Under the pieces are notes generated by a model. It made no database searches. It saw only the letters and a list, made by a program, of their open reading frames with translations, and was not told the DNA's origin. Positions 41,397 to 61,556 of a DNA stretch of 64,000 nt are shown here, in pieces. The stretch comes from Chlorobium sp. GTDB lineage: Bacteria; Bacteroidota; Chlorobiia; Chlorobiales; Chlorobiaceae. The stretch lies in assembly GCA_005862285.1 (NCBI GenBank), contig SZXW01000001.1:124001-188000 (forward strand). Reading direction: 5' to 3'. The translations under genes were made by a program, and so were the position numbers. Every line of letters starts with the position of its first letter. Position 1 is the first letter of the stretch.

Positions 41397-43262
41397 TCAA
41401 CGTCCGAGACGAATCATAAGCACAGAAATATCAGAAGGAGATATCCCGAGAATTCTCGATGCCTGGCCGATAGTCTCCGGTTTGTACTTTTTCAGCTTTT
41501 CCCGGCCTTCGTTTGACAAGCCGGCAATGGAGTCGTAGTTGTAAGATACGGGGATTTGATGAGATTCAAGTCGCTGTATTTTTTCGGCCATCAACAGATC
41601 CCTTTTCAGATATCCTTCATATTTCAGATCAATATCGACCTGTTCATGCACGGAAGGGTCGCGACTGATTGTGAAAACAGCCTCTGAAAAGCTCTCGGAG
41701 GCTTCAAGCAGCATATGAAAGTGAATCCCGGGTCTTTTCAGCAGTGCTGCTGCATTCTGTGGTGAAACGACGGAGGGATAGCCATGAATTGTGAAAATTG
41801 CATTGACCTGATCTGCCGGCAGTTTTGTCGTCTGGCAGAGCATTTTCAACTGCTCTATAAAAAGCTTCTTTCTGCTTCTTGCCGAACAGGTTTCAGGATC
41901 GACAATCCCGGAAAAAGAGGCGAATTCCAGCAGTCTTATGTCGGCATTATCATGGCGGAGCAGAAGGCGATGTTCGGCTGATGACGTGAACATCCGGTAA
42001 GGTTCTCTGGTTTCTTTCGTGACAAGATCATCGATGAGCACGCCGATATACGCATCGGAGCGCTTCAGAAACAGAGGGGGCTTGTTCTGAATTTTAAGCG
42101 CCGCGTTTATTCCCGCAATCAGTCCCTGGGCGGCAGCTTCCTCATAACCCGATGTGCCGTTAATCTGACCGGCAAAATAGAGGTTTTCGACAAGCTTTGT
42201 TTCAAGCGTTCTTTTGATCTGGTAAGGGAAGAAATAGTCGTATTCGATGGCATAACCCGGACGCATCATTTTAACATCCTGCAAACCGGGAATGGTCTTC
42301 AGCCCCGCAATCTGAATGTCTTCCGGTAAAGAGGTGGAATAGCCGTTGACATACATTTCGTTCGTATCGTATCCTTCCGGCTCGAGAAAAATATGATGGC
42401 TGTCCTTGTCCGGAAAACGGGAGATCTTGTCTTCTATCGAAGGGCAGTAACGTGGTCCGACACCCAGGACTTTTCCGGTGAAGAGAGGTGATCGGTCAAA
42501 ACCTGTTTTCAGAATTTCATGGGTTTCCGATGTTGTTTTTGTAACGAAACAGCTCAACTGGCGAACTTTATGCTGCTGTTCCGTCAGGAAAGAAAAGAAA
42601 ACCGGCAGATCGTCCCCTTTCTGTTCATCAACCAGTGAATAATCCACGCTTCGGGCATCGATCCGAGGCGGAGTGCCGGTTTTCAGCCTCCCGGATCTGA
42701 AACCGAGATTGACAAGGTTTTCGGTAAGTCCCAAAACAGGCGGTTCGGCGACCGTCCTGCCGCCAGTGTAATGGTTCATCCCGATATGAATAAGGCCGTT
42801 CAGGAATGTGCCGCAGGTGAGTATGGCTGCGGAACCTCTGACAATACGTCCGGAAGATAGTTTTACACCATTAAACAATCCAGGGGCACAATCGATACCG
42901 ATAACCGTATCCTGAAGAAGGTCGATATTATTTTCCTGCTCGATTACCTTCCGCATATAGAGCGAATACAGTGTACGGTCCGCCTGTGCTCTCGGTGAAT
43001 GCATCGCAGGACCCTTGCTTCGGTTAAGCAATCTGAACTGAATGGCAGTTGCGTCGATTGCTTTAGCCATTTCACCGCCGAGAGCATCAATTTCTCTTGT
43101 GATCTGCCCTTTGGCAACTCCTCCTATTGCAGGATTACAGGACATGCGGGCAACGGCATTCAGGTCGGTAGTTACAAGCAGACAGGAGCAACCCATTCTT
43201 GCTGCGGACAAAGCCGCTTCACAACCAGCGTGACCTGCCCCGGCGATTATGACATCATACAT
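41397..43262 (-). CDS. mnmG: tRNA uridine-5-carboxymethylaminomethyl modification enzyme MnmG (GidA)
   Basis: With MnmE it installs the carboxymethylaminomethyl group on wobble uridine 34 of several tRNAs. The 621-residue protein begins with the FAD loop [21 protein letters not shown], then [14 protein letters not shown], and later [33 protein letters not shown] and [18 protein letters not shown], all MnmG hallmarks. The gene is flanked on both sides by parS palindromes. mnmG beside the chromosome-partitioning locus is common in bacteria. Confidence 0.98.
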
Positions 43263-43737: not shown

Positions 43738-44175
43738 ATGGATAGACGGCATTTTCTTGCCTATGGTGTGCTATTTGCCGGTTATTCACTGGCTTTGCCT
43801 TCAAAACTGTTTGCTGAATGGAGTGTGAACAGTTTCCAGCAGTGCTCTATCGAACAGGCTTTTATCAATGCTCTCGGAACTCAAGAGATGGTAAAAACCG
43901 ACAAGATATCGATTGTCGCTCCTGTTGTGGCTACAGACAGTTCACTGGTGCCTGTAGATGTTATATCGGAATTGAAAGGGACCCGGATTTTTCTTTTTGT
44001 CGAAAAAAATCTTACTCCTCTGGTGTTTGTCTGTGATCTCCATGAAAATGCACTTCCATGGTTCTCGCTTAATATCAAGATGAAAGAAAGCTCGGCGCTT
44101 TATGCCGTTGTCAGGGATGGCGGCAAGTTTTTCATGTCGTCGGTACACGTCGATGTGGTGGCACAGGCCTGTTGA
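43738..44175 (+). CDS. soxY: SoxY-like sulfur carrier protein, C-terminal Cys
   Basis: SoxY carries sulfur intermediates on a C-terminal cysteine on a swinging arm, in complex with SoxZ in the periplasm. The 145-residue protein starts with a Tat-type signal (MDRRHFLAYGVLFAGYSLALP) and has an immunoglobulin-like SoxY fold (DKISIVAPVVATDSSLVPVDV). It ends in HVDVVAQAC and then a stop. The usual GGCGG tail is missing: Cys is the last residue and is preceded by Gln-Ala. The ATG at 43738 was chosen, since the extra residues upstream are not signal-like. soxZ and fccAB follow. Confidence 0.82.
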   Translation: MDRRHFLAYGVLFAGYSLALPSKLFAEWSVNSFQQCSIEQAFINALGTQEMVKTDKISIVAPVVATDSSLVPVDVISELKGTRIFLFVEKNLTPLVFVCDLHENALPWFSLNIKMKESSALYAVVRDGGKFFMSSVHVDVVAQAC

Positions 44176-44588: not shown

Positions 44589-44972
44589 ATGGCGTTGAAT
44601 CTCAGAGTGTGGCTGACTGCTTGCGCATTCTCTTCCGCAGTGTTCACTTCGGGAAGCGTCGCTCTTGCTGCAGGAAGCAGTGCTAAAGCGAAACCTGTTC
44701 GAGAATCCGCTGCTAAAGCTGCAGAAGAAAATCCACGGGGACTTGTCCTCTCTTTATCATGTACCTCATGTCACGGCACAGATGGCAAGAGTGTCGGCAT
44801 CATTCCTTCAATTTACGGTAAATCGACTGAATATATCGAAGCATCCATGCTTGCGTTCAAATCCGGAGCCCGTTATTCGACAGTAATGAGCCGTCATGCA
44901 AAAGGATATACTGACGAGGAAATCCGGCTTATTGCCGAATATTTTGGAAGACTCTCGCACAATAAAAAATAA
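44589..44972 (+). CDS. fccA: Flavocytochrome c sulfide dehydrogenase, cytochrome subunit FccA
   Basis: A 127-residue periplasmic c-type cytochrome that takes electrons from the flavin subunit. A signal peptide covers residues 1-28. There is one heme site, CTSCH (Cys58, Cys61, His62), with a methionine ligand probably at residue 100 ([10 protein letters not shown]). The surrounding [12 protein letters not shown] and [22 protein letters not shown] is the usual FccA pattern. The small monoheme form is typical for green sulfur bacteria. fccB follows 14 bases later. Confidence 0.93.
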
Positions 44973-46442: not shown

Positions 46443-48293
46443 ATGAAAAATAAACGTTTTAATCTTCTTCTGATAGTTGTTGTCACCGTTGTGGCAATCT
46501 GGTCATTATGGCCTACCTGGCGGGACTATACACTGACGAAACAGGTTAACAGCCTGGGTTCCTCTCGTGACAGTCTCACGTTTGCAGTGAACCACCGTGA
46601 CGAGATTGAAAATGCCCGCAAGAAAAGCCTCAAGCTTGGCCTTGACCTTAAAGGGGGGATGCATCTTGTCATGGAAGTTGACCAGGTTGACCTTTTCGAT
46701 CAGAAAGCATGGAACAAGGATGAGAAATTTTTTGCCATCATGGATGCTGTCAGGGCAAAGACAGTCTCGAGCGATGAACGGGTGATCGACCTTCTTGCCT
46801 CCGAGTTTAAAAAAGAAAATATTCCTCTCAGCAGGTACTTCTATGATATCCGGAATACAGACAAGGAAGTCATATCAAAGCTTCAGAAAGAGTCCGAAGA
46901 TGCGCTTAGCCGCGCGAAGGAAATTATCAGGAACCGTATTGACCAGTATGGTGTCGCTGAACCGGTTATTACCACTCAGGGGAGCAGGAAGATCATTATC
47001 GAGCTTCCCGGTGTTTCCGATGAAAACAGGGTAAGAAACCTTTTGAAAGGCACAGCGAAACTTGAATTCAGACTGCTCCGTGAACCGGAGGTTCTGATTC
47101 GGACACTTGACAAGATCAATACTTACCTTGTTCAGAACGCTTCTGCCGGAGCCCAGGCTGTGCAAGCAGATTCGGCATCGGCTGCTGCGGTTCACGGTAA
47201 ACCTGTTGCACCATCACCCGCTGCTTCGACAGGCAAAGTTTCTTCCAGGCCGCTTTACGATGTTGTCGGTGTTTATCAGAATGGAACCGCTTTTACGAAC
47301 GAACATTCAAAGGAATATGTCTCCAGCCTGTTTCATCGTAACGATATCCAGGCTCTTCTGCCTCCTGATACGGAATTGCTTATTTCTGCAAAACCTGATG
47401 TAAATAAAACCGGAGAAAAACTCTTTACGGTCTTTCTTGTAAAAAAGACGCCTGAGCTTACCGGCGGTGTCATCACTGAAGCGAAAGCGACCTTTGGTTC
47501 CCAGGGAGTGCAGCCTGAAGTACTCATGTCGATGAACTCCGAAGGAACTTCGAAATGGGCCCGGATCACCGGCGCAAATATCGGCAAAAGAGTTGCAATC
47601 GTGCTCGATAATGCGGTTTACAGTGCGCCCGTCGTCCAGTCGAAGATCCCTAACGGCAACTCCGTGATCAACGGTATCGAAAGTCTCGAGGAGGCAAAAG
47701 ACCTCGAAATCGTACTCAAAGCCGGTGCTCTTCCGGCGCCTGTGAGAATTACCGAAGAGCGTACGGTCGGGCCTTCCCTCGGTGCTGATTACATCCGTGC
47801 CGGCATGCTTTCCCTTTTATGGTCATTTGTCGCGGTTTCCGGCTTCATGCTCGTGTATTACAAGAAAGCTGGCATAGCAGCAAATATAGCGCTGGTGCTC
47901 AATATCCTTATTGTGCTTTCCGTGCTGGCAGGGTTCAACGCATCACTTTCCCTTCCGGGTATTGCCGGCATCGTTCTGACCATCGGTATGGCTGTTGACG
48001 CGAACGTGCTCATCTACGAGAGGGTCCGCGAAGAACTTGCCGAGGGAAAAACAGTAGTGAGCGCTGTTTCACAGGGATATGACAGGGCTTTTTCCTCTAT
48101 TCTCGATTCGCATGTTACGACACTGGTTGCAGCCTTCCTGCTCTATACCTATGGTATCGGTCCCATTCAAGGGTTTGCCGTGACGCTCATGATCGGCACT
48201 TCTGCAAGCCTGTTTACGGCTATCATCGTGACAAGGGAGATATTCAACGGCCTGCTCGGTAAAAACATGCTTACACAAAAAAGTTTCGGTTAA
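46443..48293 (+). CDS. secD: Protein translocase subunit SecD
   Basis: Part of the SecDF complex that uses the proton motive force to complete export through SecYEG. The 616-residue protein has TM1 at about residues 6-24, a large periplasmic P1 domain ([14 protein letters not shown] is the SecD signature; [15 protein letters not shown] follows), and the five remaining helices from about 450 with [31 protein letters not shown] (key group [13 protein letters not shown]). An Ala/Ser/Pro-rich insert lies at about 235-275. secF follows after 21 bases. Confidence 0.97.
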
Positions 48294-48314
48294 TATTTCA
48301 AGACGTTTCAACCA

Positions 48315-49253
48315 ATGAGGATTTTTCAGAAGACCAATTTCAATTTTATCGGACATCGTAAAATTGCCTATGGTATATCCCTTGTCCTGCTTATAGCCGG
48401 GTTTATCTCTCTGGCGGTCAAAGGTCTGAACTACGGTATCGATTTCAGGGGAGGATCGGAGGTCGTTATCAGGTTCGAAAAGAATATCGATGTTTCAACG
48501 GTCCGGGGAGCCCTCGACGCATCCGGGGTGTCCGGTTCCCTGAAGCAGTACGGAATGGACCGTTCTTTCCTGTTGAGCACGGTATTCAGGGGTGATACAG
48601 GCGAGCTGAAGACGCTGCTGTTGAATGCCCTGAATTCGCGGATTCCCGGAAACAGGCATGAAATCGTCAGGATAGACGCCGTAGGACCAAGTATTGCATC
48701 CGATCTGAAACTGTCCGCCATAAAGGCACTTCTTGCATCATTGCTTGCGATCCTGCTGTATGTAGGCTTCAGGTTTGAAATCAAATTCGCAACGGCCGGA
48801 GTTGTTGCGATTTTCCATGATATTCTCTGCGTTCTGGGCCTTTTCAGCATGATTGGCGGATTGTTCGATTTTATGCCGCTGGAAGTCGACCAGAGTATCA
48901 TTGCCGCTTTTCTGACAATCGCGGGCTATTCCATCACCGATACCGTTGTTGTCTATGACCGTATCAGGGAACGAGTCCGTGGCCAGAAACCGGCCGATTA
49001 CGAGCGGATATTCAATGAGAGCATGAACCAGACGCTGAGCAGAACGGTCATTACATCGGGAACGGTACTGCTATCCGTACTTGTCCTGTTCATTTTTGCC
49101 GGTCCGGCCATCAGAGGTTTTGCTTTTGCCGTATTCATGGGCATTCTCGTTGGTACCTATTCATCGATATTTGTCGCGGCTCCCCTTGTCTTCGACTGGG
49201 TGAGGCTTTCAAAGAGTGCGATTCATCTTAGAGGCGGTCAGAAATCATCATAA
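48315..49253 (+). CDS. secF: Protein translocase subunit SecF
   Basis: The SecF half of SecDF, 312 residues with six helices. The N-terminal GLNYGIDFRGGSEVVIRF holds the FDF/DFxGG signature. AGYSITDTVVVYDRIRE is the TM4 motif equivalent to Sec[12 protein letters not shown], with the functional aspartate. FNESMNQTLSRTVITSGTVL and AGPAIRGFAFAVFMGILVGTYSSIFVAAPL complete the family pattern. It is co-transcribed with secD. Confidence 0.97.
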   Translation: MRIFQKTNFNFIGHRKIAYGISLVLLIAGFISLAVKGLNYGIDFRGGSEVVIRFEKNIDVSTVRGALDASGVSGSLKQYGMDRSFLLSTVFRGDTGELKTLLLNALNSRIPGNRHEIVRIDAVGPSIASDLKLSAIKALLASLLAILLYVGFRFEIKFATAGVVAIFHDILCVLGLFSMIGGLFDFMPLEVDQSIIAAFLTIAGYSITDTVVVYDRIRERVRGQKPADYERIFNESMNQTLSRTVITSGTVLLSVLVLFIFAGPAIRGFAFAVFMGILVGTYSSIFVAAPLVFDWVRLSKSAIHLRGGQKSS

Positions 49254-53856: not shown

Positions 53857-55341
53857 TTATTTCCCGTTCAGCACTCCCATGATTTCACGGAAGCTTGAAA
53901 GCCCGGCTTCGAGGTTTTCGATGATTTCTCCGGCCAATAAATCAGGGTCGGGCAGGTTATCGAGGTCGGCGAGGCTTTTGTCCTTGAGCCAGAAGATGTC
54001 GAGGTTCGTTTTGTCGCGGGCGGCGATCTCCTCGTAGGTGTATCTGCGCCAGCGGCCATCTGGATTTTCCGGCGACCAGGTTTCCTTGCGTATGTATCGG
54101 TTTTCGGGGTTGTAGCACTCCACGAACTCCTGCAGGTCCGAGGCTTTCAGCGGGTTCTTTTTCAGGGTATGATGGATGTTGGTGCGGTAGTCGTAGAACC
54201 AGACTTCGTGAGTCCAGGGGTCTTTTGCTGCGGGCATGACATCGAAAAAGAAGACATTCGCCTTCACGCCCTGCGCATAGAAGATTCCTGTCGGCAATCT
54301 CAGGATGGTGTGCAGTTCGGTGGTTTCAAGCAGCTTTTTGCGCACCAGCTCACCGGGGCCGCCTTCAAACAGCACGTTATCGGGGAGCACCACCGCAGCC
54401 TGCCCGTGAACTTTCAGGATGGTATGGATATGCTGCAGGAAGTTAAGCTGCTTGTTGGCGGTTATCGCCCAGAAATCCTGCCGGTTGTAGACAAGGCTCT
54501 CTTTCTCCTGCTCATCTTCATCGTTGGTGAAGGTCATGCTGCTTTTCTTGCCGAAGGGAGGATTGGTGAGCACATAATCGTATCGGGCACCGTTATCGGC
54601 AACAAGCGCATCGGTGGATGAAACCGAGACATTTCCGTCAAGCTCTCCGATATTGTGCAGGAACATGTTCATCAGGCAGAGCCGCCTCGTTCCCGGAACA
54701 ATTTCATTGCCGCCGAAGGTGCGGTGCTTCAGAAATTCCTTGGCTTCCCGATCGAGGCTGTAACGGTTTGTGATGAAATCGTACGCTTTAAGGAAGAAAC
54801 CGCCTGTTCCGCATGCCGGGTCCCCGATGGTTTTCATGGGTTCCGGCCGGATGCATTCCACCATCACCTCGATCAGCGCACGGGGTGTGAAGTACTGTCC
54901 GGCACCGCTTTTCATGTCTTCAGCGTTCTTTTCGAGAAGTCCTTCGTAGATTTCCCCCTTGACATCGGCCCCCATCATCACCCAGCTCTCCTTGTCGATC
55001 ATGTCAACAACCTTGTAGAGCATGGCTGGATCGGCGATCTTGTTCTGGGCTTTCAGGAATATCTGTCCGAGCATGCCGGGTTTCTGCCCGAGATCGCGTA
55101 ACAAGCCAGTGTAAAGCTCTTCGAGCTCCGCGCCCTTTTTTTCCTTGAGCTTTGGCCAGGTGTATTCCTGCGGAATCCCGATTGTGCGGCTGTAGGGCGT
55201 TTTTGTGTACTCATCGGCCATTTTCAGGAAGATGAGAAAGGTCAACTGTTCGAGGTAATCGCCATAGCCGACACCGCTGTCGCGCAGCACGTGGCAGAAC
55301 GACCAGACTTTCGAAACGATTGCTGAAGGAGTGTTGGTCAT
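53857..55341 (-). CDS. hsdM: Type I restriction-modification methyltransferase subunit HsdM
   Basis: The N6-adenine methyltransferase subunit of a type I system. The N-terminal domain (about 1-140) is the HsdM helical bundle (GYGDYLEQLTFLIFLKMADE). The catalytic domain has the SAM motif GDPACGTGGFF (173-183) and motif IV NPPFG (260-264). At 494 residues it is full length. It is the last gene of the operon, 11 bases after hsdS. HsdM and HsdS together protect host DNA. Confidence 0.96.
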   Translation of the reverse strand: MTNTPSAIVSKVWSFCHVLRDSGVGYGDYLEQLTFLIFLKMADEYTKTPYSRTIGIPQEYTWPKLKEKKGAELEELYTGLLRDLGQKPGMLGQIFLKAQNKIADPAMLYKVVDMIDKESWVMMGADVKGEIYEGLLEKNAEDMKSGAGQYFTPRALIEVMVECIRPEPMKTIGDPACGTGGFFLKAYDFITNRYSLDREAKEFLKHRTFGGNEIVPGTRRLCLMNMFLHNIGELDGNVSVSSTDALVADNGARYDYVLTNPPFGKKSSMTFTNDEDEQEKESLVYNRQDFWAITANKQLNFLQHIHTILKVHGQAAVVLPDNVLFEGGPGELVRKKLLETTELHTILRLPTGIFYAQGVKANVFFFDVMPAAKDPWTHEVWFYDYRTNIHHTLKKNPLKASDLQEFVECYNPENRYIRKETWSPENPDGRWRRYTYEEIAARDKTNLDIFWLKDKSLADLDNLPDPDLLAGEIIENLEAGLSSFREIMGVLNGK

Positions 55342-55352
55342 GGGGTCTTCAA

Positions 55353-56810
55353 TTAATGCCTGTTACGGCTGTTCATTTTCTCAGACCTGATGCGTTCGAG
55401 AAGCTTCCCGGCAGGCTCCCATTCCGGATCATTGCGCGTTGCCTCAAGCTCATCATTACTGAGCAGTTTTCCTTCAAACGCTTTTTTCAGGATGCTTTGC
55501 CGGAGAGCTTCGGCCTTTTCAAGCGACTCCCTGATGGTTGCCTCAATGTTGTCGCAAACCGAGAGGCGAGTTTCTATTTCCTGTACGATTTGAACTTGCT
55601 CATGTAGGGAGCAAAATGGAAAGGGTAGAGTTTTGATAATCTGCATATTCAGGATATCCATAGTAGTTCCCTGAGTTCGTGCAGAATAAACCTTCTTCAA
55701 AAAAGAACATTCAAAGTAATACTTAAAAAACGGCGGGTAATAATTGTTCTTATTTAAAGATATTTTAATCAAACGAGGGTTTATAATCCCTTCTTGAAAA
55801 TTTTCCGGTAAAATTAAAATCTTTCCTACAGTCCCAACCAATGAAATAAGAATATCATGCAGCTTTACCTTATACGCACTAAGCTCATCATATTTTTTTT
55901 TATCAATAAAATAATCACCATAAAAAGCATCCTCTTTAATCACCTGCTCTTGGCCATAAACCTTATACCCTTTTGAAACATATACTTCCTTCTTTAACAA
56001 AGATCCAAAAGGGCCTGCTTTGAGGCTATTTTTATCATAATCACTTACTGTATCAATATTTATCCACTTCCAATTTTTCGGCAGTTCAGGCAATTCATCA
56101 AGTTCAGCTTTTGTCAACGGCTTGACTGACTTGAGCTTTTTACCCTGATTTTTTGCAGCCAGTTCTCTTTCGGATGTTATTTTTTCGAGCAGTTCCTGCG
56201 CTGTCGGGAGGCCGGTTTGTTGCTCACGCCAAGCTTTGGTGAGTGCTCCTTCAAATGCCTGCTTCAGAACTGCCTGATGATAGACCTTGAGTTGCTCCTG
56301 GGCTGTTTTCAGGGAGGCAATGCCGTTATCGAGTTCGCTGAAAAGCTGTTCGATTTTTGCAACGATGGCTAGCTGTTCGGAAAGGGGAGGAATAGCAAAA
56401 AGATAATTCCAAAGTATCCCGGGATCAACATGAGGAGTTCCGGTTCCCTTTGCCCTCGTATTGATTTCAAGATATTTCGATTGTAAAAAATAATAAGCGT
56501 AATCCGTTTCAATTCCCGGAAAGGAGATTTTCATCAGAGTGCTGCCTAAAGCACCTTTTATTGCTTTTCCTACATAACCTGAACGAGACCCATCCCAAAC
56601 CATGAGAAAGTCATTCTCTTCGCAAAACACACACTTATTTCCATCGGTGTACTCCTTCACAATACCCTTCTCAAACGCCTGAATGTCGACATACGGATAT
56701 TTAAAAATATCATCTGCATTTTTTTGTGATCGTTTTGGTTTAGACCCTTTTTCATGCAGGGCAAAATCCCCAAGTCGTTGAACACTCCAATCCGATCTAT
56801 AATCAGTCAT
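55353..56810 (-). CDS. hsdS: Type I restriction-modification specificity subunit HsdS
   Basis: Recognises the split DNA target. The 485 residues show two target-recognition domains (about 1-135 and 225-400), each followed by a conserved coiled-coil spacer. The first spacer is SEQLAIVAKIEQLFSELDNG and on to KQAFEGAL. The second is HEQVQIVQEIETRLSVCDNI and on to KKAFEGKL. This internal repeat is the HsdS hallmark. The DNA coding for both recognition domains (about 55600-56060 and 56390-56760) is much more AT-rich than the spacers, a sign of domain exchange. Target sequence cannot be predicted by eye. Confidence 0.95.
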   Translation of the reverse strand: MTDYRSDWSVQRLGDFALHEKGSKPKRSQKNADDIFKYPYVDIQAFEKGIVKEYTDGNKCVFCEENDFLMVWDGSRSGYVGKAIKGALGSTLMKISFPGIETDYAYYFLQSKYLEINTRAKGTGTPHVDPGILWNYLFAIPPLSEQLAIVAKIEQLFSELDNGIASLKTAQEQLKVYHQAVLKQAFEGALTKAWREQQTGLPTAQELLEKITSERELAAKNQGKKLKSVKPLTKAELDELPELPKNWKWINIDTVSDYDKNSLKAGPFGSLLKKEVYVSKGYKVYGQEQVIKEDAFYGDYFIDKKKYDELSAYKVKLHDILISLVGTVGKILILPENFQEGIINPRLIKISLNKNNYYPPFFKYYFECSFLKKVYSARTQGTTMDILNMQIIKTLPFPFCSLHEQVQIVQEIETRLSVCDNIEATIRESLEKAEALRQSILKKAFEGKLLSNDELEATRNDPEWEPAGKLLERIRSEKMNSRNRH

Positions 56811-56834
56811 TTGCTTTTACGAATTACATCTTGA

Positions 56835-57566
56835 TTAACCAATCAGCAATTCCGGCATTTCCGGGGTCTGATCCCAGATACGCCCGTCGAGCATTCGTCC
56901 TGCTTTCTTCTTGTTGAACCCGCCCCATTGCTTGAAGAAGAACGGCACATCGGCGGCAAGGCATTGTTCCCTGACCTCCTGCACCCATTCGGGCTTCATC
57001 GGTCTTGCATTTCTGCCGCTTTCACCGCCGACAATGACCCAGTCGATACCCTTCAGGTTCATCTCCGGCAGGGGACCAAGCAGAGGCTCGCACGAAAGAA
57101 ACTTCACCCGTGCCCCGGTTTCCCGCAGCAGGTCGATCCGGTGCATCGAGTTACGGTTTTCCACCGATACCCCCATCCAGACGTTATGCGGCCATTGCAG
57201 CCATCCTTCACTGTCGTAGTACCGCAGCACATCGGCGCGCTTCGTCAGCACCTGAAAGACATGATGCGGATTCTGCTGCATGACGCTGAACACCTCCCGG
57301 ATATAGTCGACAGGCACATCCTTGTGGAACAGGTCGCTCATCGAGTTCACGAATACTACGCGCGGCTTTTTCCATTTGAATGGTTCCTGTAACGTTTCAG
57401 GATGCAGGGCAAGATGAAACCCGTTCAGGTATTTCCCGACTCCCATTCCCTGAAGACGTTTTGCAAACGCTTCTGCGTAGCAGAACCGGCACCCGTCCGA
57501 GACCTTGTCGCATCCGGTCACCGGGTTCCAGGTCATCTCCGTCCACTCTATGTGCGATTGTGCCAT
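56835..57566 (-). CDS. DUF5131 / phage Gp37-Gp68 family three-Cys-motif protein
   Basis: A 243-residue protein of the Gp37/Gp68 (DUF5131) family, known in phages and bacteria. It has a radical-SAM-like iron-sulfur motif at the N-terminus: Cys19, Cys26 and Cys29 (CX6CX2C, followed by YAE). The family segments IEWTEMTWNPVTGC, VVFVNSMSDLFH, FQVLTKRADVL, NVWMGVSVENR and FFKQWGGFNKKKAGR are all present. Its activity is not established; the motif suggests radical chemistry on a nucleic acid or other substrate. The start is two bases after the tcmP 3' part. The presumed partner is TcmP, encoded upstream. Confidence 0.9.
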   Translation of the reverse strand: MAQSHIEWTEMTWNPVTGCDKVSDGCRFCYAEAFAKRLQGMGVGKYLNGFHLALHPETLQEPFKWKKPRVVFVNSMSDLFHKDVPVDYIREVFSVMQQNPHHVFQVLTKRADVLRYYDSEGWLQWPHNVWMGVSVENRNSMHRIDLLRETGARVKFLSCEPLLGPLPEMNLKGIDWVIVGGESGRNARPMKPEWVQEVREQCLAADVPFFFKQWGGFNKKKAGRMLDGRIWDQTPEMPELLIG

Positions 57567-57568
57567 GA

Positions 57569-58033
57569 TTATTTTTTTATTCTTACTGTGATTTTTTGAG
57601 GATTATTACACCTATCAGTATAGTTTAAGTAAAAAGCACCTTTTTTTGCTGGATTGCCATTTTTATCTTGAACAATCAAAGTCCCCTTATTTTGCCAACT
57701 CTTCAATATTTGATTAGCATGTTTTGGTAAATGACTGCTATGCAATACAAACTCATAGATATCTTTATTTGTTCTCCACCCCTCACTTAGAAAACATCGT
57801 AACTCATTCTCAAATTTAATTGTCGCAGAATGCTTGATTTCAACACATGAAAAAAGATCATCTTCATCCATCATTGTCCATCCACGTCCTTCTTTTTCAT
57901 CTATATCCCATTTAGCTTCAAGCATTTTTTCAAAACCATATATATGACTTGTAAAAAAGAAAAGGCAAAAATATTGATTAACATCTCTCTGAATTATAAA
58001 AGTATCAATATAGAAATCATTTCTAACTTCCAT
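57569..58033 (-). CDS. C-terminal part of three-Cys-motif partner TcmP (frame -1)
   Basis: An open frame of 154 residues beginning MEVRNDFYIDTF at 58033, in the -1 frame relative to the upstream part. It continues with YFCLFFFTSHIYGFEKMLEAKWDIDE, which resembles the second half of TcmP proteins, and ends in a winged-helix-like region (NKDIYEFVLHSSHLPKHANQILKSW). A TAA lies directly before the ATG in this frame. I infer that it was the end of one tcmP gene and is separated by a one-base loss. Whether it is translated alone, by reinitiation at the overlapping ATG, is unknown. The DNA is AT-rich. Confidence 0.7.
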   Translation of the reverse strand: MEVRNDFYIDTFIIQRDVNQYFCLFFFTSHIYGFEKMLEAKWDIDEKEGRGWTMMDEDDLFSCVEIKHSATIKFENELRCFLSEGWRTNKDIYEFVLHSSHLPKHANQILKSWQNKGTLIVQDKNGNPAKKGAFYLNYTDRCNNPQKITVRIKK

Positions 58034-58695
58034 TTAAAATGTTCTTTTAAACTATATATGAAATCTATACCGGTTATGCTAATCGGCCATTCATCATATG
58101 GAACAAGATCTTCAATAAAGCTTTTCAGGCTTTGAGGTGTTCCATTTGATTCAAATCGAAACATGAACTGTGTTGGTAAAAATAATAAAATCTCAGTCTT
58201 TTTCGTATTTAACAGAGATTCGATATCTTTAAGTCGTATGTTCTTATATTGAAAAGGATCAATAAAAACAAAGCTTTTCTCTCGATCTCCTAAGGAATTA
58301 TTTTTTCTAATTACCTCATCAATAACTATTTCATAATCTTTACACGAATAACTGGTGTCAATATTTTTTTTATTAATGCTTGATTTTGATATATAGTCTT
58401 TTAATATCAAAATTCTTTCAGAGTCCGTATCATTAAAAAAACACTCAAACTTCGCTTCACTACAAATACCTTTTTCTAACACTTTAAGAATTTCGTTTAA
58501 AATCACTAATGGACTTCCTTGCTTTTCATTTTCATATATACCAGGGCCACAAAACAAATCATATACGTATATTTTTTTAATTTGAGTAGAATGGCCCAAA
58601 ACCAAAAAGTATTTTTCTAAATAGATTCTTAATAACTCAACTTTTATTTCCGAATGAGGATACAAGTTTCTTTGTGAGTCTCTGTATTTTTTCAT
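57994..58695 (-). CDS. tcmP: N-terminal part of three-Cys-motif partner protein TcmP (frameshifted gene)
   Basis: The family partner of DUF5131 proteins, function unknown. The 233-residue frame starts with MKKYRDSQRNLYPHSEIKVE and has methyltransferase-like segments YVYDLFCGPG (residues 43-52), CFFNDTDSER (85-94) and FIDPFQYKNI (144-153), as in TcmP. It then runs into an out-of-frame tail and stops at 57994, while the downstream frame carries the missing half. The ATG overlaps the hsdR stop (ATGA). Intact TcmP is about 350-390 residues, equal to the two parts together. The DNA is far more AT-rich than flanking genes. Confidence 0.75.
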   Translation of the reverse strand: MKKYRDSQRNLYPHSEIKVELLRIYLEKYFLVLGHSTQIKKIYVYDLFCGPGIYENEKQGSPLVILNEILKVLEKGICSEAKFECFFNDTDSERILILKDYISKSSINKKNIDTSYSCKDYEIVIDEVIRKNNSLGDREKSFVFIDPFQYKNIRLKDIESLLNTKKTEILLFLPTQFMFRFESNGTPQSLKSFIEDLVPYDEWPISITGIDFIYSLKEHFKWKLEMISILILL

Positions 58696-61556
58696 ACCGT
58701 CAACGCTTCGTTGAGTTCTTCGATAATCCCGTCCATCCGGTCGCCGAAAAGCTGCCACATCCGTCCCCGGCCTCCATGCGCGTCGAAAGGTGTGAAATCG
58801 AGGTCATCCTTTTCCATGTGTATGCTCGATGCAACATGCTCCTTGATCATGCGCAGCCAGTTCATCTGCTCTTCGGTGAACTTTTCACCGGCGCCTGAGT
58901 GCTTTTTGAACACCCACGCCTTGAAATTGGCATCGACGGTTTTATCGTAGGCTGTCAGGACCCGGTCGATGCCCGTTACCCGGCGGATGAGTGAAACAAG
59001 CGCCATCAGCTCGTTTTTCGGGTTTCCATTGACCTTGTCGATCTGTTCGTATGCATGCCATATACGCATCGGTGCCAGGGCCGGTTTGTCGGCTTTCAGG
59101 CGGTCGAGCACTTCGCGGATCATCCGGTAGGTCAGGGTTCTGCGCTGGTAAGGCTGGTTGTAGAATATCCCGAGCGCAGCGATTTCATCCTTGTGGGCTT
59201 CGAGGTAAGCCTTGAACTCCCCGATAAGCTCTCCGGCCTTGTCGGCACTGTCTGAAGCCCATTCGGAACCCGTCAGCCGGTCAAGGTTGACCGTGTCGAT
59301 GATCTGCTCATGAACCCGGCGTACCGTATCGATGAACTCATTCAGTTCCCCGTTGAAAGTTGAACTTGCTTCATGCAGCAGTGACTGCTGAGCCTGCTCA
59401 AGATACATGGTCGATTCGGCGGACGGGCTCTCGCTCCCGTCTTCAAGCGCAGCGGGGTTCATCTCTCGCGCTTTCCGGCTGATGCTGTCGGGGTCCCATG
59501 AGTCGAGCAGTTCTCGGACAACCTGGTTGATGCTCTTTCCCCTGGCCTTGTCGGCAAATTCCGACCTTTCCCTGTCGGTTATCTCTTTTTCAAGGCGCGC
59601 AAGGCGGTTGGCAAGCGAGATATACAGATCCTCTTCCTGTGCGCCGAACGTCACGGCTTCGAGCAGCTCTTTGAGTGAAACTGATGGTTTGCGTTCAAGC
59701 GGACGGCTGTCGGTCTTCAGGGATTTCGTCACCCCAACCGCATCGATGATCACGAAATGGGTTTTGGCCGAGGTAACCGAAGGCGTAACCTTTTTCAGGT
59801 CGTCAAAATTCAGTGTGCGTGTTCCTCTTCCTTTCATCTGCTCGAAATAGTTGCTGCTCCGGACATCGCGCATGAACAGCAGGCATTCGAGCGGTTTGAC
59901 GTCGGTTCCGGTAGCGATCATATCGACCGTGACAGCTATTCTCGGGTTGTACTCGTTGCGGAAGCGGGCAAGCAGCGATTTCGGGTCATCCTGTGCCTTG
60001 TAGGTTATCTTGTTGCAGAAAGCGTTGCCTTCGTTGAACTCTTCACGGATAATCTGGATGATATCGTCGGCATGACTGTCGGTTTTTGCGAACACAAGGG
60101 TTTTCGGCACCTCCTTTCGGCCGGGAAACAAAACAGGCAGGATGTCGCGAAACGCCCGGATGACGGTTCGTATCTGGCTCGGGTTCACCACATCGCGGTC
60201 CAGCTGGGTTCCGGTATAAACCACATCCTCGTCGAGCTGTTCCCAGCGCCTTCGGCGTGAAAGTTTTTCGCGTCTGTCGATATACTCTTGAGCCTTGATC
60301 TGTGAGCCGTTCCGGGTTATTTCCGTCTCGATGGTATAGACATCGTAACCGACATTGACCCCGTCCGCCACTGCCCGTTCGTGGCTGTACTCGCTCACGA
60401 TATTTTCGTTGAAAAAACCGAAGGTCCGCTTGTCGGGCGTAGCAGTCAGGCCGATCAGGAAAGCATCGAAATAATCGAGCACCTGCTTCCACAGGTTGTA
60501 GATCGAACGATGGCATTCGTCGATGACGATGAAGTCGAAAAACTCTATCGGAACCTTTGCATTATAGGCTACCGGAACAGGCTCTTTCGGCTGCCAGCTT
60601 TTCTCGGCCGGATTTTCTTCCTCAAGTGAAGCGTCAAGCTCCACACCTTTCAGAATTGAATAGAGCCGCTGGATAGTTGAAATGCAGACCTGGCTGTCGC
60701 CGGCAACAGAGCCTGACTGCAGCCGCTGCACATTGTAGAGCTCGACAAACTTGCGGTTGTCGTCATTCGGGGTGTATGCACGGAACTCCTGCTCGGCCTG
60801 TTCACCAAGGTTCCGGGTATCGACAAGGAAAAGTATCCGTTTTGCATCGGCATGTTTCAGCAGACGGTAGATAAAGGTGATCGCCGCGAAGGTTTTTCCG
60901 GAGCCGGTCGCCATCTGGATCAGTGCCCTCGGGCGACCATCCCGGAAAGAACGCTCGAGGTTGCCGATAGCCATGGACTGGCACTCCCGCAAACCGGAAG
61001 TGTTCAGTTCCGGCAGGGACTGCAGGCGCTCCCTGAGGCTTTTCTCCTTTGCAAGCCATTCCCGGAATGTTTCGGGACGGTGAAAGGTGAATACCGGCCG
61101 GGAACGGGGTTTCGGATCGCGGTAATCGGTAAAGCGGGTCAGGGCGCCTGTGCTTTCGTAGACAAACGGCAGCGGATCGTTATTCAAGTGCTTCAGTTTG
61201 CTCCCGGCATATCCGGAAGACTGCTCTTCGACAACGGTGAGATGATGCCCTTCCTCTTCCTTTTTCGCCTCGATGATCCCGACCGGCCTACGGTCGACAA
61301 ACAGAACGTAATCGGCTTCCTGACCGTCCTGCGAAGGATAGTGCCTGACGGCTATTCCCGGCGACTTGTGCCAGTCGATGCGGTTCTTGTCCTGAACATC
61401 CCAGCCGGACACTCCGAGTTTATCGTCGATCGTATCCCGGGCTCGTTGTTCCGGGGTCTGATTTAGAGACTGTTTTTGAGTCACAGTGAGGGTTGTTCCA
61501 TGTTGAGATCTGCAAATGCAGAAAATCGGCATTTGAACACGTGAATACTGCTTCAT
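58692..61556 (-). CDS. hsdR: Type I restriction enzyme subunit HsdR
   Basis: The DNA-translocating and cleaving subunit. Residues 60-110 hold a PD-(D/E)xK nuclease: Asp82 (EADYVLF), then Glu96 and Lys98 (GIIEAKKE). The SF2 motor follows, with Walker A QMATGSGKTFAAI (about 213-225), DECH box FIVIDECHRSIY, motif III GLTATP, and C-terminal helicase motifs TVDMIATGTDVKPLECLLFMRDVRSSNYFEQMKGRGTR (key group QMxGRGTR). At 954 residues the family length is normal. The ATG at 61556 lacks a good ribosome-binding site; in-frame starts at 61532 (ATG) and 61484 (GTG) are alternatives. It is the first gene of the operon. Confidence 0.95.
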   Translation of the reverse strand: MKQYSRVQMPIFCICRSQHGTTLTVTQKQSLNQTPEQRARDTIDDKLGVSGWDVQDKNRIDWHKSPGIAVRHYPSQDGQEADYVLFVDRRPVGIIEAKKEEEGHHLTVVEEQSSGYAGSKLKHLNNDPLPFVYESTGALTRFTDYRDPKPRSRPVFTFHRPETFREWLAKEKSLRERLQSLPELNTSGLRECQSMAIGNLERSFRDGRPRALIQMATGSGKTFAAITFIYRLLKHADAKRILFLVDTRNLGEQAEQEFRAYTPNDDNRKFVELYNVQRLQSGSVAGDSQVCISTIQRLYSILKGVELDASLEEENPAEKSWQPKEPVPVAYNAKVPIEFFDFIVIDECHRSIYNLWKQVLDYFDAFLIGLTATPDKRTFGFFNENIVSEYSHERAVADGVNVGYDVYTIETEITRNGSQIKAQEYIDRREKLSRRRRWEQLDEDVVYTGTQLDRDVVNPSQIRTVIRAFRDILPVLFPGRKEVPKTLVFAKTDSHADDIIQIIREEFNEGNAFCNKITYKAQDDPKSLLARFRNEYNPRIAVTVDMIATGTDVKPLECLLFMRDVRSSNYFEQMKGRGTRTLNFDDLKKVTPSVTSAKTHFVIIDAVGVTKSLKTDSRPLERKPSVSLKELLEAVTFGAQEEDLYISLANRLARLEKEITDRERSEFADKARGKSINQVVRELLDSWDPDSISRKAREMNPAALEDGSESPSAESTMYLEQAQQSLLHEASSTFNGELNEFIDTVRRVHEQIIDTVNLDRLTGSEWASDSADKAGELIGEFKAYLEAHKDEIAALGIFYNQPYQRRTLTYRMIREVLDRLKADKPALAPMRIWHAYEQIDKVNGNPKNELMALVSLIRRVTGIDRVLTAYDKTVDANFKAWVFKKHSGAGEKFTEEQMNWLRMIKEHVASSIHMEKDDLDFTPFDAHGGRGRMWQLFGDRMDGIIEELNEALTV

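Follow-up and report, generated by a model that had tools for sequence, protein, structure and literature searches.

What does a SoxY-type protein carry, and for which partner, when it ends in a bare cysteine in place of the glycine-flanked arm of canonical SoxY? This question is raised by a gene in a 64,000-nucleotide stretch of DNA from the green sulfur bacterium Chlorobium sp. (the window, from contig SZXW01000001.1). The genome assembly to which the window belongs comprises 2.61 Mb in 15 contigs, is 100% complete, and has metagenome-assembled genomes of Chlorobiaceae as its close relatives. The SoxY-like protein and its SoxZ-like partner are named SoyY and SoyZ here, as we take the pair to be the "SoyYZ" of Gregersen, Bryant and Frigaard (2011).

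The tail that the preliminary description had located at 44131–44175 is real, but 44131 falls inside an open reading frame that starts with ATG at 43738 and closes with the cysteine codon TGT (44170–44172) and the stop codon TGA (44173–44175). The encoded protein carries a twin-arginine N-terminus (MDRRHF), and its C-terminus reads SSVHVDVVAQAC and then stop, with VVAQAC as the final residues and Cys145 as the very last one. When this end (VDVVAQAC) is compared with the canonical Chlorobiaceae SoxY tail (VKVTIGGCGG), the two cysteines coincide in position; Q-A takes the place of the glycine pair that precedes the canonical cysteine, and the glycine pair that follows it has no counterpart in SoyY. 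The comparison upholds the earlier claim that the terminal cysteine aligns with the carrier cysteine, while the end of the reading frame and the 26 orthologues described below uphold the claim that this SoxY ends in a bare cysteine without GGCGG. A frameshift or sequencing error concealing a GGCGG motif is ruled out, since the motif is absent from both alternative frames downstream of SoyY, in the window as well as in 25 relatives, and the 26 orthologues agree. No inverted repeats were found around the soyY gene. SoyY has a second cysteine, Cys99 (codon 44032–44034), which is invariant in 24 of 24 Chlorobiaceae orthologues and replaced in the two Chloroherpetonaceae-like ones.

SoyY meets the Pfam SoxY family PF13501 with 75.8 bits against a cut-off of 28.4. 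It stays under the curated equivalog cut-off of TIGR04488, SoxY_true_GGCGG (84.1 versus 125 bits), and far under that of TIGR04487, the "AACIE arm" model (18.3 versus 172 bits). The AlphaFold model of SoyY, built with the 26-row alignment, adopts the immunoglobulin-like fold of SoxY with a pLDDT of 81.7. Its best PDB matches are all SoxY, with the Chlorobium SoxY 2nnc at the top (TM 0.86 on the target). The last strand of the model spans residues 130–140, and residues 141–145 are predicted to be unstructured at low confidence (block mean pLDDT 60), as would be expected for a free arm.

When 394 genomes of the phylum were searched, 26 SoyY orthologues were identified including that of the window, 24 of them in the same genus (relatives at 51–90% identity) and two in another Chlorobiales family (38%). 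The cysteine is the last residue in all 26 and belongs to the invariant columns of the alignment, with tails reading QAC in 23 proteins, EAC in two, and EGC in one. At the DNA level, the cysteine is encoded by TGT in 17 orthologues and TGC in nine, and the stop codon is TGA in 18 and TAA in eight. As both codons vary, it is selection, and not recent shared descent of the DNA, that preserves the terminal cysteine. Comparison with close relatives, as proposed in the preliminary description, therefore returned the same C-terminal cysteine across Chlorobiales, and the tail is not a peculiarity of one sequence but belongs to a paralogue that is found throughout the lineage and has a synteny of its own. 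The canonical SoxY proteins recovered by the same searches end in VTIGGCGG, or in VGGCG in two genomes, and those of Chlorobiaceae are about 27–34% identical to SoyY. Genome G145 carries both kinds of SoxY, on different contigs. Outside Chlorobiales, a handful of SoxY tails (L081–L083) are all of the glycine type. In two genomes of the sister genus (G028 and G229; loci L100 and L101), a SoxY with the tail VGGCG occurs with SoxZ, SoxA and SoxB were not found, and fccAB lies on another contig.

Judged from these sequences, the bare C-terminal cysteine is a conserved, clade-wide diagnostic variant and not damage. The opposite reading, in which soyY is decaying after the loss of a Sox system or carries a 3′ sequencing error, draws on two losses of soyYZ on the FccB tree (see below), by which the pair is dispensable. 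Against it, the 26 orthologues share the same end with intact frames and varying stops, none of them contains a premature stop or frameshift in soyY, and dN lies well below dS (0.046 versus 0.154 between the window gene and its nearest relative); we regard this reading as scarcely credible. A phage or plasmid origin was also rejected: viral contigs and phage records contained no relative, and the sole plasmid match was a 24.5% SoxY on one Allomeiothermus plasmid.

The gene neighborhood sets SoyY apart from an ordinary SoxY (Table 1). The protein had been described as SoxY, which holds for its homology but not for membership of an ordinary sox cluster, as soyY heads an apparent operon of the order soyY-soyZ-fccA-fccB. 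SoyZ scores over the cut-off of the SoxZ_true model (88.2 versus 76). The closest structures to FccB are 5n1t (E 1e-144) and 1fcd (E 3e-137), and three conserved cysteines are kept in FccB according to its sequence and the alignment with 5n1t.

Table 1 Features of the soyYZ-fccAB locus and its conserved flanks, in window coordinates.
Feature	Position	Strand	Basis
SoxY-like carrier subunit (SoyY), 145 aa	43738..44175	+	PF13501, fold, 26-row alignment
C-terminal arm VAQAC in place of IGGCGG	44158..44172	+	Tail comparison; 3′ of last predicted strand
SoxZ-like partner (SoyZ), 102 aa	44203..44511	+	PF08770 93.5 bits; solved SoxZ relatives
fccA-like monohaem cytochrome c subunit, 127 aa (CTSCH)	44589..44972	+	PF00034 27 bits, cut-off 21.3
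fccB, flavocytochrome c sulfide dehydrogenase flavoprotein, 430 aa	44987..46279	+	PF21706 and PF09242 over cut-off
mnmG (GidA), conserved upstream flank, outside the function	41397..43262	-	Synteny
secD and secF, conserved downstream flank, outside the function	46443..49253	+	Synteny

The order mnmG / soyY soyZ fccA fccB / secD is found in the window and 22 further loci, wherever the contig is long enough, and fccA adjoins fccB in every locus whose contig extends far enough. The two Chloroherpetonaceae-like genomes keep the four genes together between other flanks. At the mnmG-secDF site, fccAB occurs without soyYZ in a second Chlorobiaceae genus and in G098, G024, and G185; in the second-genus loci L087 and L103, fccAB likewise lacks soyYZ, and mnmG and secDF were not seen alongside. 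Three changes of the soyYZ label are needed on the FccB tree, a number that a single gain and two losses would give. An old operon that lost its carrier twice would account for this pattern, on a tree whose rooting is unproven. As two lineages retain fccAB without soyYZ, the pair is accessory and not required for the retention of FccAB. No signal of relaxed constraint was found on FccA or FccB of the loci without soyYZ (6 versus 13 and 29 versus 64 columns, the opposite direction).

We then consider the enzymes with which a SoxY would be expected to work. No second SoxY, SoxA, or SoxB was found in the window genome, and SoxX is represented solely by cytochrome matches below the curated cut-off; such absence calls are only as good as the completeness of the assembly and the first-look filter allow. 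The check for a second standard sox cluster elsewhere in the genome, also proposed in the preliminary description, thus came out negative, and on this gene content the known thiosulfate Sox pathway cannot run in the window genome, which lacks SoxA, SoxB, and a second SoxY. Three of the SoxX-model matches, all below cut-off, fall in one 878-aa open frame (G000:C7:239001-240569; L104–L106), which suggests a multihaem cytochrome c. Across genomes, FccB is present in 26 of 26 with a C-terminal-Cys SoxY versus 53 of 98 in the whole order (Fisher p 3e-9; the co-occurrence p values, about 1e-9, ignore phylogeny and are descriptive only). SoxA accompanies the C-terminal-Cys SoxY in one of 26 genomes and the GGCGG/GGCG type in 19 of 21; among these 21 is G374, whose SoxY match is a fragment with the tail outside it. 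SoxB exceeds the cut-off, at full length, in only one of the 26, G145, which is also the only one of them with SoxA and has a canonical GGCGG SoxY in addition; a SoxB fragment is present in G330.

These distributions bear directly on whether SoyY could be an ordinary SoxY of the thiosulfate pathway with a variant tail. The Pfam SoxY match, the SoxY fold, and the passing of the NCBI SoxZ model by SoyZ would agree with such a role, but the 100% complete genome is without SoxA and SoxB, and the score lies under the SoxY_true_GGCGG cut-off, so that we consider this role very improbable. In Chlorobiales, a soxY match with a bare terminal cysteine should accordingly not be taken as a sign of thiosulfate oxidation. 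The earlier suggestion that partners or chemistry differ, with sulfide or polysulfide rather than thiosulfate as the substrate, is probably correct given the lack of SoxA and SoxB and the FccAB neighbor; with a flavocytochrome c sulfide dehydrogenase as neighbor, sulfide or zero-valent sulfur is a better match than thiosulfate. As for downstream enzymes, dsrA is present in the window genome, is absent from the Chloroherpetonaceae with the operon, and has no match over cut-off in G248. An obligate link between SoyYZ and Dsr was rejected as not general, because the Chloroherpetonaceae have the operon without dsrA. The window genome also encodes, outside the window, a type III sulfide:quinone reductase (G000:C1:827745-828956; L110), which scores over the cut-off of the NCBI selenoprotein-subtype model and has no in-frame stop in the match.

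Comparable arrangements have been published. In Prosthecochloris without soxAX and soxB, soxYZ adjoins fccAB and shares about 30% identity with canonical SoxYZ (PMC10158934); the same paper, citing Gregersen 2011, describes the soxYZ-fccAB cluster as conserved in other green sulfur bacteria, and a Prosthecochloris metagenome-assembled genome with SoxYZ and without SoxXAB has been reported (PMC8066431). A literature search that did not cover Gregersen et al. 2011 gave no match for the name "SoyYZ". The published cluster shares with the window locus its gene order, its bacterial group, and its low identity to canonical SoxY, and the window locus is most likely an instance of it. The module is therefore already known, and the bare-Cys tail is a clade-wide variant of it. 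Canonical SoxY and SoxYZ (TIGR04488; PDB 2nnc, 2oxg, 4uwq) resemble SoyY in fold, cysteine position, SoxZ partner, and twin-arginine N-terminus, whereas SoyY ends in AQAC, stands in an operon with fccAB, and occurs in a genome without SoxAX and SoxB. SoxY paralogues with altered swinging arms are known from TIGR04487 and from the swinging-arm signature groups (PMC11237559). They share with SoyY an altered arm and suspected non-thiosulfate roles, but differ in sequence and in their neighbors, which are DMSO or tetrathionate reductases and alcohol dehydrogenases. A Burkholderiales metagenome-assembled genome (L083) also has SoxY and SoxZ beside FccA/FccB-like genes, but in divergent orientation and with the tail GGCGE, so that adjacency to fccAB is not in itself enough to predict a bare cysteine.

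The question of the partner can now be addressed. Flavocytochrome c uses a cysteine pair beside FAD to oxidize sulfide to zero-valent sulfur, and to our knowledge the periplasmic acceptor of this sulfur is not established. SoyYZ is a concrete candidate for this acceptor, as it lies in the fccAB operon and has its Sox arm swapped for a bare cysteine. On balance, we favor the reading that SoyYZ, a SoxYZ-type pair, carries sulfur in the periplasm specifically for FccAB and not for the thiosulfate Sox enzymes. In its favor are the conserved gene order, FccB in all 26 genomes with soyY, the scarcity of SoxA and SoxB among them, the SoxY fold, the terminal cysteine that persists while its codon and the stop change, the FccB tree, and the three cysteines kept in FccB. 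Against it stand the loci that retain fccAB without soyYZ and the negative result for relaxed constraint on FccA and FccB there. In the proposed mechanism, FccB would oxidize sulfide at its cysteine pair beside FAD, with the electrons leaving via FccA, and zero-valent sulfur would move from FccB onto the Cys145 thiolate of SoyY, forming a persulfide or a short polysulfane. SoyYZ would then hand the sulfur to the next acceptor, for example polysulfide, sulfur globules, or a route to Dsr. The glycine-flanked arm may have been lost because the cysteine would meet one fixed partner and need no longer enter several Sox active sites such as those of SoxB and SoxA. A more specific proposal, which we advance with somewhat less assurance, is that the product sulfur of FccAB leaves as a SoyYZ-bound persulfide on the bare cysteine rather than as free polysulfide, making the operon a Sox-independent module. 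SoxYZ is able to carry SoxY(S)n polysulfane adducts on the arm cysteine in vitro after sulfide treatment (PMC5336275).

The operon evidence would also fit sulfur flow in the reverse direction, in which SoyYZ presents sulfide, polysulfide, or other sulfur to FccAB, or FccAB keeps the carrier cysteine redox-active. The flavoprotein SoxF has been proposed to keep the SoxYZ carrier cysteine active in thiosulfate oxidizers, and canonical sox clusters of the family have an FccB-like gene in the SoxF position about 1 kb from soxY (e.g., L098). However, relatives of FccB are generally known to use free sulfide without a carrier, and the locus holds no other Sox enzymes that could employ a reactivated carrier; the reverse direction appears unlikely to us. 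A still less probable role for SoyYZ is that of a non-carrier partner of FccAB, serving in scaffolding, docking, or maturation, with the terminal cysteine used for a disulfide or tethering. The closest solved FccB relative is 5n1t, an FccB reportedly crystallized with a CopC protein to which SoyYZ would be comparable in role, the SoyY arm is without the glycines thought to serve active-site access, and the invariance of Cys99 in the 24 Chlorobiaceae rows would suit a disulfide. On the other side, no element of the tail is stricter than the terminal cysteine, which still occupies exactly the place of the carrier cysteine, and a Cys99-Cys145 disulfide could not be general, given that Cys99 is missing in Chloroherpetonaceae.

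Elsewhere in the window, a type I restriction-modification locus with HsdM, HsdS, and HsdR was identified on the minus strand at 53857–61556 (Pfam, PADLOC). It includes a DUF5131 gene at 56835–57566 that PADLOC assigns to PDC-M30B/M41B. A candidate defense gene of the PDC-M30A type is spread over two frames, with 57994–58758 covering profile positions 4–226 and 57569–58033 covering 227–371, and appears to be a single gene interrupted by a frameshift.
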